This document shows, in pieces, positions 739-41,058 of a stretch of DNA of 64,000 nucleotides; position 1 is the stretch's first letter, and every line of letters starts with the position of its first letter. The notes under the pieces were generated by a model that was not told where the DNA came from, searched no databases, and worked only from the letters and a program-made list of their open reading frames with translations. The stretch is taken from contig DATBHW010000064.1 in assembly GCA_036557285.1 (NCBI GenBank), positions 62,001-126,000 on the forward strand. The letters run 5' to 3'. The translations under genes and the position numbers were made by a program. The stretch comes from Ktedonobacterales bacterium (GTDB lineage: Bacteria > Chloroflexota > Ktedonobacteria > Ktedonobacterales > DATBGS01).

Positions 739-1025
739 AAGCATGCTACCTATTCTAGACGCGCTTTCCGGGCGCTAACAAGAGCTTGCTCCTCTTCGAT
801 ACGCCTCAATTGCCCTATTATATCCCGGTTTGGCTAGCTTTTTGCATATGCAGTGGATGCGCAGCAAGGGCGCGGCGCGCCTATTTGCTAAATGCTGCGA
901 CCGTGTTGTATGCTTTGGTTGCGTGATAGGGGCTTCTCGCGCTTTGCTTGCCTTCAGGCAGGATTCCCAACAATAGGGCTGCCTGCCATGAGCCAGAGCG
1001 AGAGGAGCAAGCACAACTGAAGAGA
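739..1025. other. Divergent spacer between purD and the purE leader
   Basis: No convincing gene is seen here. Short open frames on both strands lack family motifs and ribosome sites. The spacer must hold the promoters for purD (leftward) and the purE riboswitch leader (rightward), but no strong -35/-10 pair could be placed for the rightward transcript. Confidence 0.5.
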
Positions 1026-1137
1026 TGCCCGTATATGCCTGGGAATATGGCTCAGGTGTCTCTACCCTGTGACCGGTGTTCGCTTTCAGCCACTTTTTGG
1101 AGGGCTGAACGAACCAAAATCATGGGACTACGGGTGA
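1026..1137 (+). promoter_or_regulatory. Purine (guanine-type) riboswitch aptamer with enlarged L3
   Basis: The segment folds like the xpt guanine riboswitch. P1 pairs 1027-1033 with 1129-1135. P2 pairs CCTGGG (1038-1043) with CTCAGG (1051-1056) around an AATATGG loop. J2/3 reads TGTCTCTACC (1057-1066), and J3/1 reads GACTACG after P3. The positions equivalent to U47, U51 and C74 are T1059, T1063 and C1128; C74 is the guanine-specific residue. P3 pairs 1066-1072 with 1120-1126. L3 keeps the CCG and AAAA that could kiss L2, but an extra hairpin (1078-1114, stems GTTCG/CGAAC and TTCAGCC/GGCTGAA) is inserted in it. It lies 210 nt upstream of purE, so it probably senses guanine or a related purine. 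Confidence 0.85.
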
Positions 1138-1233
1138 ATGGGGTCTTATGCTCTGCTGGCTGCAATGTGCATGCCTTTGGATCAGAAGGCCCTGCGCAGC
1201 CGCTTTGCGTGGCTGCGTTACCGATTGGTTTTC

Positions 1234-16042: not shown

Positions 16043-16203
16043 TCAGCAGCCTGGTTTTGGCAGGTTGTGCGGCGTGCCGCCCCTGGTGGTAAGATAGACC
16101 TGGCTGCGTCTACTGTTGGTTCGCAGGGTCGTGAGCCACGCGCTCAGGGAACCCCACATTGACGATGCTGAAAGTAAGAGTGATCAGAGAGCGAGGAGGA
16201 GCA

Positions 16204-17682
16204 TTGACGAGTGTAGTACTCACGCGTCTCTATCAGGGTGGTCTGAAAGAACACCTCACGACGTTTGCCGATCCGCGCAGCGGCCTCCTGGTCAGGCCGG
16301 ATGATACGACCCACCACACGCGGCCTGGTGTCTCTCTGGCCGAAGTGCTGGAGCAGTGCCACACCCCACGCCTGATGCTCGTGGCCGCCCTGGCCGACGT
16401 GCCTCGTTCCTGGTTTGAAGCTGCACACGCGCAGGGCTGGGTTCTCTCGCATTTTAGCATGGAGCAGCGAACTGCCACTGCGCGGCGCGGGGACCGGACC
16501 ATCGAAATCCGGCTGGCTAGCGCCTCCTTTTTCAAGGATGGTGCTGATCTGGCGATAGTGACGCGCGCCTGGAAAGCCTTGCGGCAGATCGTCGGGCGGC
16601 ATGGCGGCGGCTTACCCCTGCTGGGGAGTCCAGGCAGCATCGGCCTCGCGCTCCTCGAACGGCTCCTGCCCGCAGGCTCCTCCTATCCGGTGCAGAGCGA
16701 AGCGATCCGGGCGCTCCTGCACACGCACAGCCCTCAACCCCGGAAGGAATGCTTGACAGCCTCTACTCTGGAACACATCCCAGGCTTTCACTATCTGGAT
16801 GGGCGCTGGATGTATGCGGCGTGCCTGATCTACTCCTTTCCAGTTGGTTCGCCAGAGCGTGATTGCCTCGACCAGTTTGAACGCTATCGGCCTGGCTGGT
16901 ATCGCATCACCGCCACGATCCCCGCTGATTGGCAGCAGGTGGGCCTGCTGCCAGTGCCAGGTGAGCGGATGGGAAGTGAGAAACCCTGGACCTGGCCGGC
17001 GACCCCTGGGGCCGTCCTCGCTGACCTGTGGGTGAGTGAGCCGGAACTGCGGCTCGCGCTGGAGCAGGGCTGGGCCTGCACTATTCACGAGCGCCTGCTC
17101 TTTGCGGGGCAAAAAGTGCTACGCACCTGGCAGGAGCGACTGGTCAGGATGCGCGCCGATGCAGAGCGCCTGGCCCCAAACCTCCGCCCCCTGGTCAGCG
17201 GAGCCATTCGGGAGATCCTGCTGCATGCGGTGGGACGCTGGCATATGCAGTCATGGGAAGAAGAACGTACTCTCACCCTGGACGAATGGACGCGCCTGGC
17301 GTCTTCGCTGAGCGCCGACGAGCAGATGAGCGCGTATCAGCGCGAGACGGGTGTGATGTCGTATGTAGCGAAGCGGCCCCTCAGTGGGCGGGAGACCAAA
17401 TGGCTGCGACCCGAATGGAGCGCGTATGTGTGGGCATATTGCCGGGTACTACTGACACGGCGCCTGCTCAGTCTGCCCCGCGCAACGATTCTGGGAGTGA
17501 ATACGGATGCGATCTACGTCACTGTGGACCCTGGCTGGCCCGATGATGGCACACCCGGCTCGTTTCGCTCCAAGGGCGTCCTGGCCGGGCCGCTGGCCGC
17601 GCCGCGCACAGAAGAGGACTTGCGTCGCTTGAAAGAGGTGGCAGAAAGGACGACCACGCATGGCACGCTCTCTGGCTGGTGA
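16204..17682 (+). CDS. Degenerate protein-primed-type family B DNA polymerase homologue
   Basis: The protein (492 residues from TTG 16204, after GCGAGGAGGA) shows the polymerase motif order of phi29-like enzymes. LGSPGSIGLALLERLLP lies before the palm. Motif A reads HYLDGRWMYAAC (Asp near 199). Motif B reads IREILLHAVGRW (near 335-346), where Lys becomes Arg and NSxYG becomes HAVG. Then SAYVWAYCRVLL and motif C GVNTDAIYV (near 433-435) follow, where the first Asp of DTD is Asn. The N-terminal exonuclease region is too short and its motifs are not seen. It may be inactive or altered in activity. An in-frame start at 16159 is possible. The next gene overlaps it by 23 bases. The assignment rests on motif order only. 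Confidence 0.55.
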   Translation: MTSVVLTRLYQGGLKEHLTTFADPRSGLLVRPDDTTHHTRPGVSLAEVLEQCHTPRLMLVAALADVPRSWFEAAHAQGWVLSHFSMEQRTATARRGDRTIEIRLASASFFKDGADLAIVTRAWKALRQIVGRHGGGLPLLGSPGSIGLALLERLLPAGSSYPVQSEAIRALLHTHSPQPRKECLTASTLEHIPGFHYLDGRWMYAACLIYSFPVGSPERDCLDQFERYRPGWYRITATIPADWQQVGLLPVPGERMGSEKPWTWPATPGAVLADLWVSEPELRLALEQGWACTIHERLLFAGQKVLRTWQERLVRMRADAERLAPNLRPLVSGAIREILLHAVGRWHMQSWEEERTLTLDEWTRLASSLSADEQMSAYQRETGVMSYVAKRPLSGRETKWLRPEWSAYVWAYCRVLLTRRLLSLPRATILGVNTDAIYVTVDPGWPDDGTPGSFRSKGVLAGPLAAPRTEEDLRRLKEVAERTTTHGTLSGW

Positions 17683-18223
17683 TTTGATGCAGCAGCTTTA
17701 TCAGCGTGGGATGACCAACGCGCAGATCAGCCACGCGCTGGGCGGCTATGATCCAGCGATTCTGGGCAGAGTGGCGCGCGGCGAGCGGCCTGGGACGAAT
17801 CTGGTGGGGCCGCTCCAGGGGTTGCTGGGGGGAATGCCGAGCGCCACTGTACCCAAGGCGGAACATCAAAAACGGATCATCCGAGATGCCCAGGGGCGCA
17901 TCACCAGTTATCGCCCCAAACAACTCAGTGCCGCCCGGTTAAAGCGCGTGTTGCGCCAGGCGGCGAACCAAGGGGCCACACGCGCGGGGATGGTGGCGGA
18001 TGTGGGTACGTTTCAGGGGTACGAGCAGCGGCGGGCCGGGCAGCACCTCATCCGCGCCTTCCGCAAGGGGGACTCCGCGACCCCTGGCGCCCTGGCGCAG
18101 CGGTTGGACCAGGCGAGGCAGCCAGCCGAGACATTCCTGCTGAGCGAAATCAAAGCTGCGACAGGGGCGGAGGAGGTCGCCGACCTGCGGGGAGTCCAAA
18201 TCAACTTCTACTATGGCAGCTAG
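17660..18223 (+). CDS. HTH-containing protein coupled to the polymerase-like gene
   Basis: This 187-residue protein of no recognised family starts inside the end of the polymerase-like gene (ATG 17660), so the two are probably translated together. Residues about 15-45 (GMTNAQISHALGGYDPAILG, then RVARGERPG) look like an XRE-type helix-turn-helix with the usual ending G(E/R)RP. A second basic, Ala/Arg-rich helical part (about 95-150) contains LKRVLRQAANQGATRAGM and could also bind nucleic acid. Thus a DNA-binding partner of the polymerase homologue is plausible: a replication initiator, a terminal protein analogue or a regulator. Confidence 0.55.
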   Translation: MARSLAGDLMQQLYQRGMTNAQISHALGGYDPAILGRVARGERPGTNLVGPLQGLLGGMPSATVPKAEHQKRIIRDAQGRITSYRPKQLSAARLKRVLRQAANQGATRAGMVADVGTFQGYEQRRAGQHLIRAFRKGDSATPGALAQRLDQARQPAETFLLSEIKAATGAEEVADLRGVQINFYYGS

Positions 18224-18231
18224 CATGGATG

Positions 18232-18330
18232 GAGGCAGCCCGTAGCGTGTGAAAATTCAAATTGAACCCTTGAGTAAGTCGGAAGAATGAAAAGAAGTGG
18301 ATGGGATTTTCGCACGCTACGGGCTGCCTC
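18232..18330. repeat. Long inverted repeat, 24-bp arms
   Basis: Arms 18232-18255 and 18307-18330 match over 24 positions with a single T/C difference that would be a G-U pair in RNA, around a 51-bp AT-richer loop. The arms begin GAGGCAGCCCGTAGCGTG. It sits between the polymerase-like pair and the convergent PEBP gene. No T-run follows, so it is not a normal terminator; it could be a small MITE-like element or the end of the accessory insertion. Confidence 0.85.
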
Positions 18331-38511: not shown

Positions 38512-41058
38512 CTACTTCTCGACTTCCTGGCAGCGAATCCAGCGTGGCTGAATGACCTCAACTGGGCGATCAAAAAGGCCAGGCTGACCGTTCAGGCGGA
38601 ACAGTTGCTCGAAATCATCGGGGGCAAAGGCTTTGCGCAGCCGCGCGGCATAGGATGTGACCAGCGCCTGGAGATAGTGATTCACGTCGTAGTCGCGGCG
38701 CTCCCCGATGATCTCCCGGCGTGATGGTCTGGCGCCTGGCCTTTTTGGGACTGTCGAAGCAGCAGGCGAGATGGCGGCCAGTTCTTCCTCATCTTCTTCA
38801 CCCTCTGCCCCTGCTTCCCAGGCAGCGCCAGCGGGCGCTTCATCGGCTTCTTCCGGCAGCCAGATGTACCCGCCGCCGCGAGCGCGATAAAAGCGCACGC
38901 GCTCGCCGGGGGACCAGCGGGTGCGCCCGGCGGCCAGCAGCGCCTCGTAAGGAGCTTCGGGATGTCCGGCGCGGGCCGCCAGATAGGCTTCGGGCGTTTT
39001 TGAGAGGCGCACGCGCGCGGCGACATCGGCGGCTGTGAGTGCGCGGCTCTGCAAGGCGGCTACTATATCCAGATACGCCTGGCGAACGCCAGAAATATCG
39101 CCAGTCATGGCGCACGTCAGCGCCTGGCGCAGAAAGCGCCCGCCAAATGGTTCAGCGCGGCTGGAACGCAGCGCCACGCCATGCACTACTAAGCGCCCGC
39201 TGTAGGTGAGCAAGGCGTAGTTTTTGACTTCGTGGCTGAGCATGGCGCGGTAGCGGCCCTCGTATTCCAGGCGAATGCCCGCAGGCAGTTCTGCGCCTAT
39301 CTCGGCGACAAGCGCGCGCTCCTGTTCCTCGGTCCAGTCAAGAGGAACGGCAAAATATACGCCGTCGGTATCGGCTTCGATCAGGGCCATGCCGCGCTGG
39401 CGCAGGGCGTCAAGCACCTGAGACAGCACTTCGCGGCCTCGGCGGGTTACTTCGCCTGCCGCCAGGCCGTCGGCAAAGAGCGCCATCGAGCCAGCGCCCA
39501 TATAGCCGTAAGCCGCGTTAATCAGGATTTTCATGGCGGCCTGGGTTGCGTCGTGATGGTTGGCTTCCACCGAGCCGGGCGCGGCGGCGCGCGCCGCCGC
39601 TTTATGATGCAGGCGCAGATCGGTCAGGCGGCCAAGAATATCCAGCAAGACGCCTAAGCGATCACAGGTCGGACCAATCTGGTAGGTGCGCATCAGCGAG
39701 GGATACAGCGAGGCTACGTCGGCTTTGACGACGTGTTCAGCGATGCCTTCAGCGAAGAGATGCACCGCGCCGCCTTCGTGCAGGCCGCCTTCGGCGTACT
39801 GGCTGGCGGCCCCACGCGGCAATGCCGCGCCAGCGCGCAGATAGGCGCGAACCAGGATTGGCTCCAGAATGCCCATCGCCGGACCCGCCGAGGCCAGACG
39901 CTCGTAGCGGCGCGGGGCCATGCCCGCCAGCGCGAAGGGCGCTCCCAGGAGCCGCCGCGAGAGGCCATCAACCTCAGCAACGTCGTCCAGGGCGTATCGC
40001 TTCACCAGATCGGGGTTCTGGCGGTAGGTATCGAAGATGGCCGCGCCTTCCAGGTACACGCGATCAGGCGCGGAGATGCCAAAATAGCGCGCCACTTCTT
40101 TCAGGCCATAGCCGGGCATATCGCGGTAGACAAAATCATGGCGGCGCACTGCATCGAGTGTGTCAATGAGTTCGCGCCCAGCCAGAGTATAGCGCATGCG
40201 TCGCCGGGCCTCCGGCCCAATTGCCAGCGTTTCCTGGCGGCGCTCTAACAGAATCGGCGCGCCAGGGCGGCCCAGCGCCAGCGGCACGCCAAGGACAGCC
40301 GCGCGGCGCTCCAGAAACGAAAGATCGAAGCCAAAGAGGTTATGGTTCTCGATCACATCGGGGTCGCGTTCACGAATCAGCGCGCACAGGTGTTCAATTA
40401 AATCTGCCTCGTCTTCGGGCGCTGGCGCGTCAAGCACAGTCGCAAGGCCGTGACTATCGCGGATGGCGACCATGAAGATGCGCCCGCGATCAGGGTCAAG
40501 GGCGGTAGTCTCCAGATCGAATTGCAGGCGGCGCAGGTCTTCATAGGCCAGGCCGCGAAAATAGACCCGCCCGGTGCGCATCATATATTGCTCAACAGGG
40601 CCAACGTGGTAATAGTCGTCTTCGAGATCGTTCAGACTGGTAATCTGGCGGCCCAGGCGGCGCGACGCCCCGGAAACGATGGCGCGCTCCAGATAGCGCC
40701 CATCGCGGGCGGAGAGCAAATAGCGATAGAACGTTTCGGGGCCTGCGCTGGAGGGATACTCCAATTCTTGATAGCAGACGATAGCATCGGCTCCTCCAGG
40801 GGCGCTGGCGGAGATCACCGCTGGCCCCAGGTGCTTCAGGTCGGCCAGTGTGGCGGCAAAGACCCAGGGGCGAAAGCGTTCAGTCTCGCACACGACCTGG
40901 CTGCCGACGCGCCGCCAGATAACGGCGCTGCCCTCGCGGCTGGCCCAGACAGAGATAATCCCCGGCGTCTGATCCCAGCCAAACAGGCGCTCATCTTTCG
41001 TGTTTTCAAGGGCGTCTTCAGATAGTGCAGGAAGAGATGAAGGCATGATCTTCGGCAA
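38512..41058 (-). CDS. Family B DNA polymerase
   Basis: An 848-residue replicative-type PolB with both activities. The exonuclease has LQFDLETTALD (Exo I), ENHNLFGFDLSFL (Exo II) and YALDDVAEVD (Exo III). The polymerase has ADVASLYPSLM (motif A), KILINAAYGYMG (motif B, Lys and YG) and IEADTDGVYFA (motif C). All catalytic residues are present, unlike the homologue at 16204. A charged stretch EAGAEGEEDEEE lies near the C-terminus, followed by YDVNHYLQALVTSYAARLRKAF. Such enzymes are seen in many Chloroflexi and archaea. It converges with the channel gene. Confidence 0.95.
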   Translation of the reverse strand: MPKIMPSSLPALSEDALENTKDERLFGWDQTPGIISVWASREGSAVIWRRVGSQVVCETERFRPWVFAATLADLKHLGPAVISASAPGGADAIVCYQELEYPSSAGPETFYRYLLSARDGRYLERAIVSGASRRLGRQITSLNDLEDDYYHVGPVEQYMMRTGRVYFRGLAYEDLRRLQFDLETTALDPDRGRIFMVAIRDSHGLATVLDAPAPEDEADLIEHLCALIRERDPDVIENHNLFGFDLSFLERRAAVLGVPLALGRPGAPILLERRQETLAIGPEARRRMRYTLAGRELIDTLDAVRRHDFVYRDMPGYGLKEVARYFGISAPDRVYLEGAAIFDTYRQNPDLVKRYALDDVAEVDGLSRRLLGAPFALAGMAPRRYERLASAGPAMGILEPILVRAYLRAGAALPRGAASQYAEGGLHEGGAVHLFAEGIAEHVVKADVASLYPSLMRTYQIGPTCDRLGVLLDILGRLTDLRLHHKAAARAAAPGSVEANHHDATQAAMKILINAAYGYMGAGSMALFADGLAAGEVTRRGREVLSQVLDALRQRGMALIEADTDGVYFAVPLDWTEEQERALVAEIGAELPAGIRLEYEGRYRAMLSHEVKNYALLTYSGRLVVHGVALRSSRAEPFGGRFLRQALTCAMTGDISGVRQAYLDIVAALQSRALTAADVAARVRLSKTPEAYLAARAGHPEAPYEALLAAGRTRWSPGERVRFYRARGGGYIWLPEEADEAPAGAAWEAGAEGEEDEEELAAISPAASTVPKRPGARPSRREIIGERRDYDVNHYLQALVTSYAARLRKAFAPDDFEQLFRLNGQPGLFDRPVEVIQPRWIRCQEVEK

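Follow-up and report, generated by a model that had tools for sequence, protein, structure and literature searches.

A probable Tac/Tpc-type telomere end-patching gene pair, with a phi29-like polymerase homologue, in a Ktedonobacterales chromosome

The closest described counterpart of the gene pair studied here is the telomere system of the linear plasmid SCP1 of Streptomyces coelicolor, whose terminal protein Tpc (259 aa) has an N-terminal HTH and is encoded downstream of tac (PMC3572947). Both tac and tpc are essential, and Tac alone was able to deoxynucleotidylate Tpc with dGMP in vitro and to extend the product by a few nucleotides (PMC4513846). In the same study Tac was said to be without polymerase motif and without homologue, Streptomyces genomes were said to encode no family B polymerase, and such systems were regarded as convergent; the SCP1 end was described as a G string followed by C and then by A (PMC4513846). 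Telomeres of the SCP1 type have been listed for SCP1, pSCO2 and pFRL3, tac and tpc being stated on pSCO2 (PMC8743542), and a chromosomal tac-tpc pair has been described in Kitasatospora viridifaciens (PMC7188733). The Tap/Tpg proteins of the archetypal Streptomyces telomeres also patch ends by means of a telomere-associated protein and an HTH terminal protein, as is proposed here for the window pair, but according to PMC4513846 they are unrelated to Tac/Tpc in sequence.

The window, i.e. the whole stretch of DNA analysed, comprises 64,000 nucleotides of one contig of a Ktedonobacterales draft genome. The features of the locus are the following:

16193 to 16201, plus strand: ribosome-binding-site-like GAGGAGGAG, preceding the TTG start at 16204; a good site, judged on its sequence
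16204 to 17682, plus strand: tac-like gene, putative trimmed phi29-like protein-primed family B polymerase homologue, 492 aa
16789 to 16821, plus strand: motif A, HYLDGRWMYAA (core LDGRWMYAA), D214 being codon 16798-16800
17209 to 17241, plus strand: motif B, R351-EILLHAVGRW (R351-EILLHAVG at 17209-17235)
17497 to 17523, plus strand: motif C, VNTDAIYVT, D450 being codon 17506-17508
17660 to 18223, plus strand: tpc-like gene, probable terminal protein with N-terminal HTH, 187 aa
18232 to 18330, no strand assigned: inverted repeat with 25-nt arms (18232-18256 and 18306-18330) and a 49-nt spacer, adjoining the 3' end of the tpc-like gene

The stop-free frame of the tac-like gene runs on the plus strand from 16159, the earliest possible start (TTG), to 17682; the alternative starts are this TTG and an ATG at 16165, and the residue numbers used below (D214, R351, G359, D450) were counted from 16159. 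At the base composition of the window, 507 stop-free codons would arise by chance with a P of about 5e-7. Both genes display coding-type GC by codon position, and the tac-like gene, present in a single copy in the window's own genome, stops inside the tpc-like gene, which gives an overlap of 23 bases. An earlier note on this DNA had described motifs A, B and C in the correct order, with Lys replaced by Arg, NSxYG by HAVG and DTD by NTD, in an intact frame that overlaps an HTH gene and seems to be kept under selection. All three motifs and all three changes were found in the window protein, and the frame is open from the TTG at 16204 to its stop. That the frame is no product of chance is also supported by the coding-type GC and by relatives of about 30% identity, which match the protein over almost its full length (E down to 2e-34), and the view that it is under selection is upheld. 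Inspection of the family alignment of the window protein and its relatives revealed no obvious 3'-5' exonuclease motifs. In the 187-aa protein itself the HTH signal is weak; the aligned second proteins of the relatives have an N-terminal HTH region in common and low similarity otherwise. A tac-like gene directly upstream of an HTH gene is the arrangement met in the window as well as in the relatives.

By sequence alone, the kinship of the window protein with family B polymerases is weak. Pfam DNA_pol_B_2 matched it with E = 0.001, which is below the family cut-off, and matched 4 of 21 family members at E <= 0.1 (best 4.4e-4). Searches of the PDB by sequence (phmmer and a profile search) matched no polymerase, and NCBIfam and PHROGs gave nothing consistent for the polymerase-like family. 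The hhalign comparison with six phage polymerases brought the three motifs into register at E 0.017. In a control run, however, 2 out of 150 alignments with shuffled columns equalled the real score, and the score of a second profile was even lower.

The fold was predicted by AlphaFold2 without templates from the window protein and 64 relatives (pLDDT 72, pTM 0.72). In the Foldseek search with this model phi29 DNA polymerase took all nine top places among the PDB matches (E 3.9e-12 to 5.7e-10, probability 1.00, 11-12% identity), followed from E 2e-4 on by family B polymerases of archaea and by engineered variants. Against viral structures the model matched polymerases, mostly those of protein-primed viruses (GA-1, tectiviruses, adenoviruses, His1). 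A relative from Streptomyces zinciresistens, 92% identical to the pFRL3 relative, was modelled with pLDDT 87.8 and pTM 0.85, and all nine of its matches below E 0.001 were phi29 polymerase (best E 2e-10, probability 1.00). Since the alignment is common to both, the two models are not fully independent. The TM-scores against phi29 polymerase were moderate, about 0.4-0.5, and thus domains would be trimmed or differently arranged. Judged by the models, the window protein seems to be a genuine relative of the phi29 phage polymerase in a trimmed form. The polymerase palm, for which the earlier note had proposed to search in a structure model, is present with phi29 polymerase as the top match, and the supposed protein-primed type is in line with the phi29-like fold of both models and with the protein-primed viral polymerases matched.

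In family B polymerases such as those of phi29 and RB69 the metals are held by the Asp of motif A and by the second Asp of motif C. The corresponding residues, D214 and D450, are invariant in 101 of 101 relatives, and so is G359 of motif B, while R351 is Arg in 100 of the 101 and Lys in one. At residue 448, the second position ahead of D450, the relatives have Arg, Gly, Asn or another residue, but Asp in none of the 101. The K-x3-NSxYG form of motif B does not occur; the window has R-x4-HxxG, whose Arg and Gly are kept across the family, and therefore the protein was not classed as a canonical protein-primed family B polymerase. Since D214 and D450 are invariant, residue 448 is never Asp and R351 is almost always Arg, the unusual motifs B and C constitute a family signature, and as judged from the alignment the protein is not decaying but fits regularly into a family that has motifs B and C of its own. 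It thus does not look degenerate, as the earlier note had called it, or dead, the more so as NTD stands also in motif C of a polymerase of the same kind from a Bifidobacterium phage. The replaced Lys of motif B, the missing NSxYG and a motif C without its first Asp would fit a catalytically dead polymerase that is reused, together with the HTH protein, as a regulator or as a structural telomere binder; we consider this very unlikely, since both metal-binding Asp are retained throughout the relatives, the phage example of NTD exists and SCP1 Tac is enzymatically active (PMC4513846).

Compared with polymerases of the phi29 type, the window protein has in common the predicted fold, the Asp that bind metal in motifs A and C and, presumably, the task of starting DNA on a protein. 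Its motif B has Arg and HxxG where theirs has Lys and NSxYG, its motif C lacks the first Asp, and its N-terminal part is short; the gene order is reversed, the polymerase preceding the primer protein, and only a short patch is predicted to be made.

Relatives were searched for by tblastn with the window protein, which yielded 52 plasmid records at E <= 0.01 with 25-34% identity. All those named belong to Actinobacteria (Streptomyces, Kitasatospora, Micrococcus, Curtobacterium, Microbacterium, Cutibacterium, Clavibacter, Kineococcus, Paenarthrobacter, Rothia and others), pSCO2 (E 4e-30) and pFRL3 (E 2e-34) among them. In the annotated plasmids that were opened, the tac-like gene is followed by a gene of about 200-290 aa, mostly touching or overlapping it; in two of these plasmids one or two small genes lie in between. 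The pair adjoins the replicon end in pSCO2 and lies 320 kb into the 437 kb of pFRL3. A scan of genome contigs gave 80 loci in Streptomyces and close genera. Five copies are located on contigs >5 Mb, at 5.1, 12.5, 1.6, 5.5 and 254 kb from an end; the presence of four out of five within 13 kb of an end has a P of about 3e-10, and the megabase-size contigs with these near-end copies (1.6-12.5 kb) are from Streptomyces/Kitasatospora.

In the order Ktedonobacterales the tac-like gene was detected in 6 of 47 genomes, that of the window included, and among 400 Chloroflexota genomes it occurs only in these six. Dictyobacter aurantiacus S27 (G039) has four copies on its two contigs (6,133,338 and 2,748,323 bp), one about 3 kb in from every end and each pointing outward. 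All four ends are identical over 10,897 bases, and the two-gene unit is inside these terminal inverted repeats. Two linear replicons of matching sizes with a 10.9-kb terminal inverted repeat are reported for this strain in PMC13289182, and the replicons are likewise called linear in PMC6497799; no telomere protein is named in the passages retrieved. A further Ktedonobacterales genome (G046) carries the pair on a 17.4-kb contig, which is probably a linear plasmid, since the 141 bases of its right end are an inverted copy of bases 1436-1576. In D. kobayashii (G040) the tac-like gene at one contig end is broken into several frames (C1:3-1439, minus strand) and a partial match lies near the other contig end (C1:6028735-6029112, plus strand); the broken copy may reflect decay or poor sequence at the contig end. 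The survey of relatives for the two-gene unit, which the earlier note had suggested, thus located it in Ktedonobacterales and on actinobacterial linear replicons. The tree of the family has long branches and leaves the placement of the window's protein open, and therefore no claim is made on the direction of transfer.

The replicon ends of the relatives resemble each other. Those of D. aurantiacus read GGGGGCAG, both ends of pSCO2 read GGGGGGCAG, the end of pLMV7 reads GGGGGGGGCAG after three bases, and one end of pFRL3 reads GGGGGGGCGG; in D. aurantiacus, pSCO2 and pLMV7 the end opens with a G run and then CAG, in agreement with the G string, C and A of the SCP1 end (PMC4513846).

The pSCO2 and pFRL3 relatives of the window genes are, by place and order, obvious candidates for tac and tpc, and the homology with Tac rests on these genes, which were taken as tac on that ground. 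Because the same unit is found on linear replicons, pSCO2 and pFRL3 included, and because of the G-run-CAG ends, we interpret the window pair as an end-patching telomere module of the Tac/Tpc (SCP1) type, located in a Ktedonobacterales chromosome, with a probability of roughly 0.78. The combination, which the earlier note had found unfamiliar, equals the tac-tpc pair of linear replicons, the SCP1 members of which make DNA on a protein primer (PMC4513846). As in SCP1, pSCO2 and pFRL3, a polymerase-like gene precedes that of a terminal protein which has an HTH in its N-terminal part; the genes of pSCO2 and pFRL3 are homologous to those of the window, and relatives of the window have the G-run-CAG ends. 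In contrast to the SCP1-type systems, the window pair is on a Chloroflexota chromosome, the identity is about 30%, the polymerase is shorter and lacks the N-terminal extension, and the terminal protein has 187 aa against 259.

By analogy, the window proteins are predicted to act as SCP1 Tac and Tpc do. The 187-aa HTH protein would be the terminal protein, which caps a linear replicon at its 5' end and provides a hydroxyl group as primer. The 492-aa polymerase would join the first dNMP, probably dGMP, to it and would then copy the 3' overhang into a short stretch of DNA, by which the gap that replication leaves opposite the 3' end would be filled. The window's genome would then be expected to have linear ends.

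The pair is 48 kb from the nearer end of its contig, between ordinary genes. The contig also carries purL, purF and purM with a purine riboswitch, as well as a class I tRNA synthetase gene, so the pair is chromosomal here. This position away from the contig ends would agree with a pair that is a remnant of a replicon once linear, or of a plasmid that became integrated, and is now unused in a circular chromosome, and so would the mainly plasmid-borne occurrence of the relatives, the unexplained inverted repeat after the pair and the result that no G-run telomere was recognised at the contig ends of the window's genome (a draft of 82 contigs), among the places listed. We regard this main alternative as unlikely, since both frames are intact and overlapping, every family-wide invariant residue is kept, and Tac/Tpc can work in trans, so that a position at the end is not needed, as in pFRL3. 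A family B polymerase outside a phage, adjoining an HTH gene, could also bring to mind a defence device or an element of the phage, pipolin or casposon type. Such an origin is extremely improbable, since no PADLOC-DB family matched at E <= 1, no relative of the polymerase-like protein was found among viral contigs, phages and PHROG, and the relatives track linear replicons instead. From the guesses of the earlier note (replicon remnant, defence or regulator) the replicon part has stood, and the defence part found no support in the PADLOC search.

Homologues of the telomere resolvases ResT/TelK (PF16684, E down to 1e-35) were detected in nine Ktedonobacterales genomes, several of them beside contig ends. 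One is encoded in the terminal repeat of D. aurantiacus (L011:6909-8576, minus strand), which also holds the Tac/Tpc-like pair; in G036, G043, G044 and G045 the homologues lie within about 10 kb of contig ends, and they occur in G001, G041, G042 and G046 as well. Hairpin telomeres are thus possible in Ktedonobacterales, an order that may have telomeres of two kinds. These positions would also be compatible with linear replicons whose hairpin ends are made by a telomere resolvase, the Tac/Tpc-like pair serving another role. This is improbable to a similar degree as the dead polymerase, since PF16684 is absent from the window's genome, the D. aurantiacus ends resemble the protein-capped ends of the SCP1 type, and the actinobacterial relatives sit on replicons with protein-capped telomeres.

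If the pair is of the Tac/Tpc type, the SCP1-type telomere system is extended to another phylum, and the pair becomes a candidate for the mechanism behind the linear replicons published for Ktedonobacteria, as well as for the telomere system of those Streptomyces and Kitasatospora chromosomes that carry it at their ends. The phi29-like fold would explain how end-copying proteins of the Tac type make DNA, a puzzle so far because Tac, although shown to be a primer-specific polymerase, was described as lacking any polymerase motif (PMC4513846), and together with the invariant residues it names the motif A Asp and the motif C Asp as the likely active site of Tac. We infer that SCP1 Tac has the same fold as the window family; if it does belong to this family, the models give an answer that differs from PMC4513846 and that can be tested by two point mutants. 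It is probable, in our estimation, that Tac proteins are divergent phi29-like family B polymerases, and that protein-primed copying of bacterial chromosome ends has a common origin with the protein-primed copying in phages and adenoviruses. It would then occur in at least two phyla, and also on Ktedonobacteria chromosomes such as the window's. In the open-access literature, to which the search extended (subscription journals being outside its scope), no publication was found that already names Tac a phi29-like polymerase.

The arms of the inverted repeat at 18232-18330 begin with GAGGCAGC, close to the telomere sequence GGGGGCAG. An internalised telomere was considered for this repeat and set aside in view of the 49-nt spacer and of the fact that no second copy exists in the genome; it may be a terminator or something else. 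Counted over both strands, GGGGGCAG is present 370 times in the window's genome, compared with 107 for the pattern read backwards. Elsewhere in the window, the purine riboswitch (1009-1150, plus strand) is upstream of the purL/purF/purM gene cluster, and a separate full-length family B DNA polymerase of 848 aa with an exonuclease domain (DNA_pol_B and RNase_H_2) is encoded at 38515-41058 on the minus strand.
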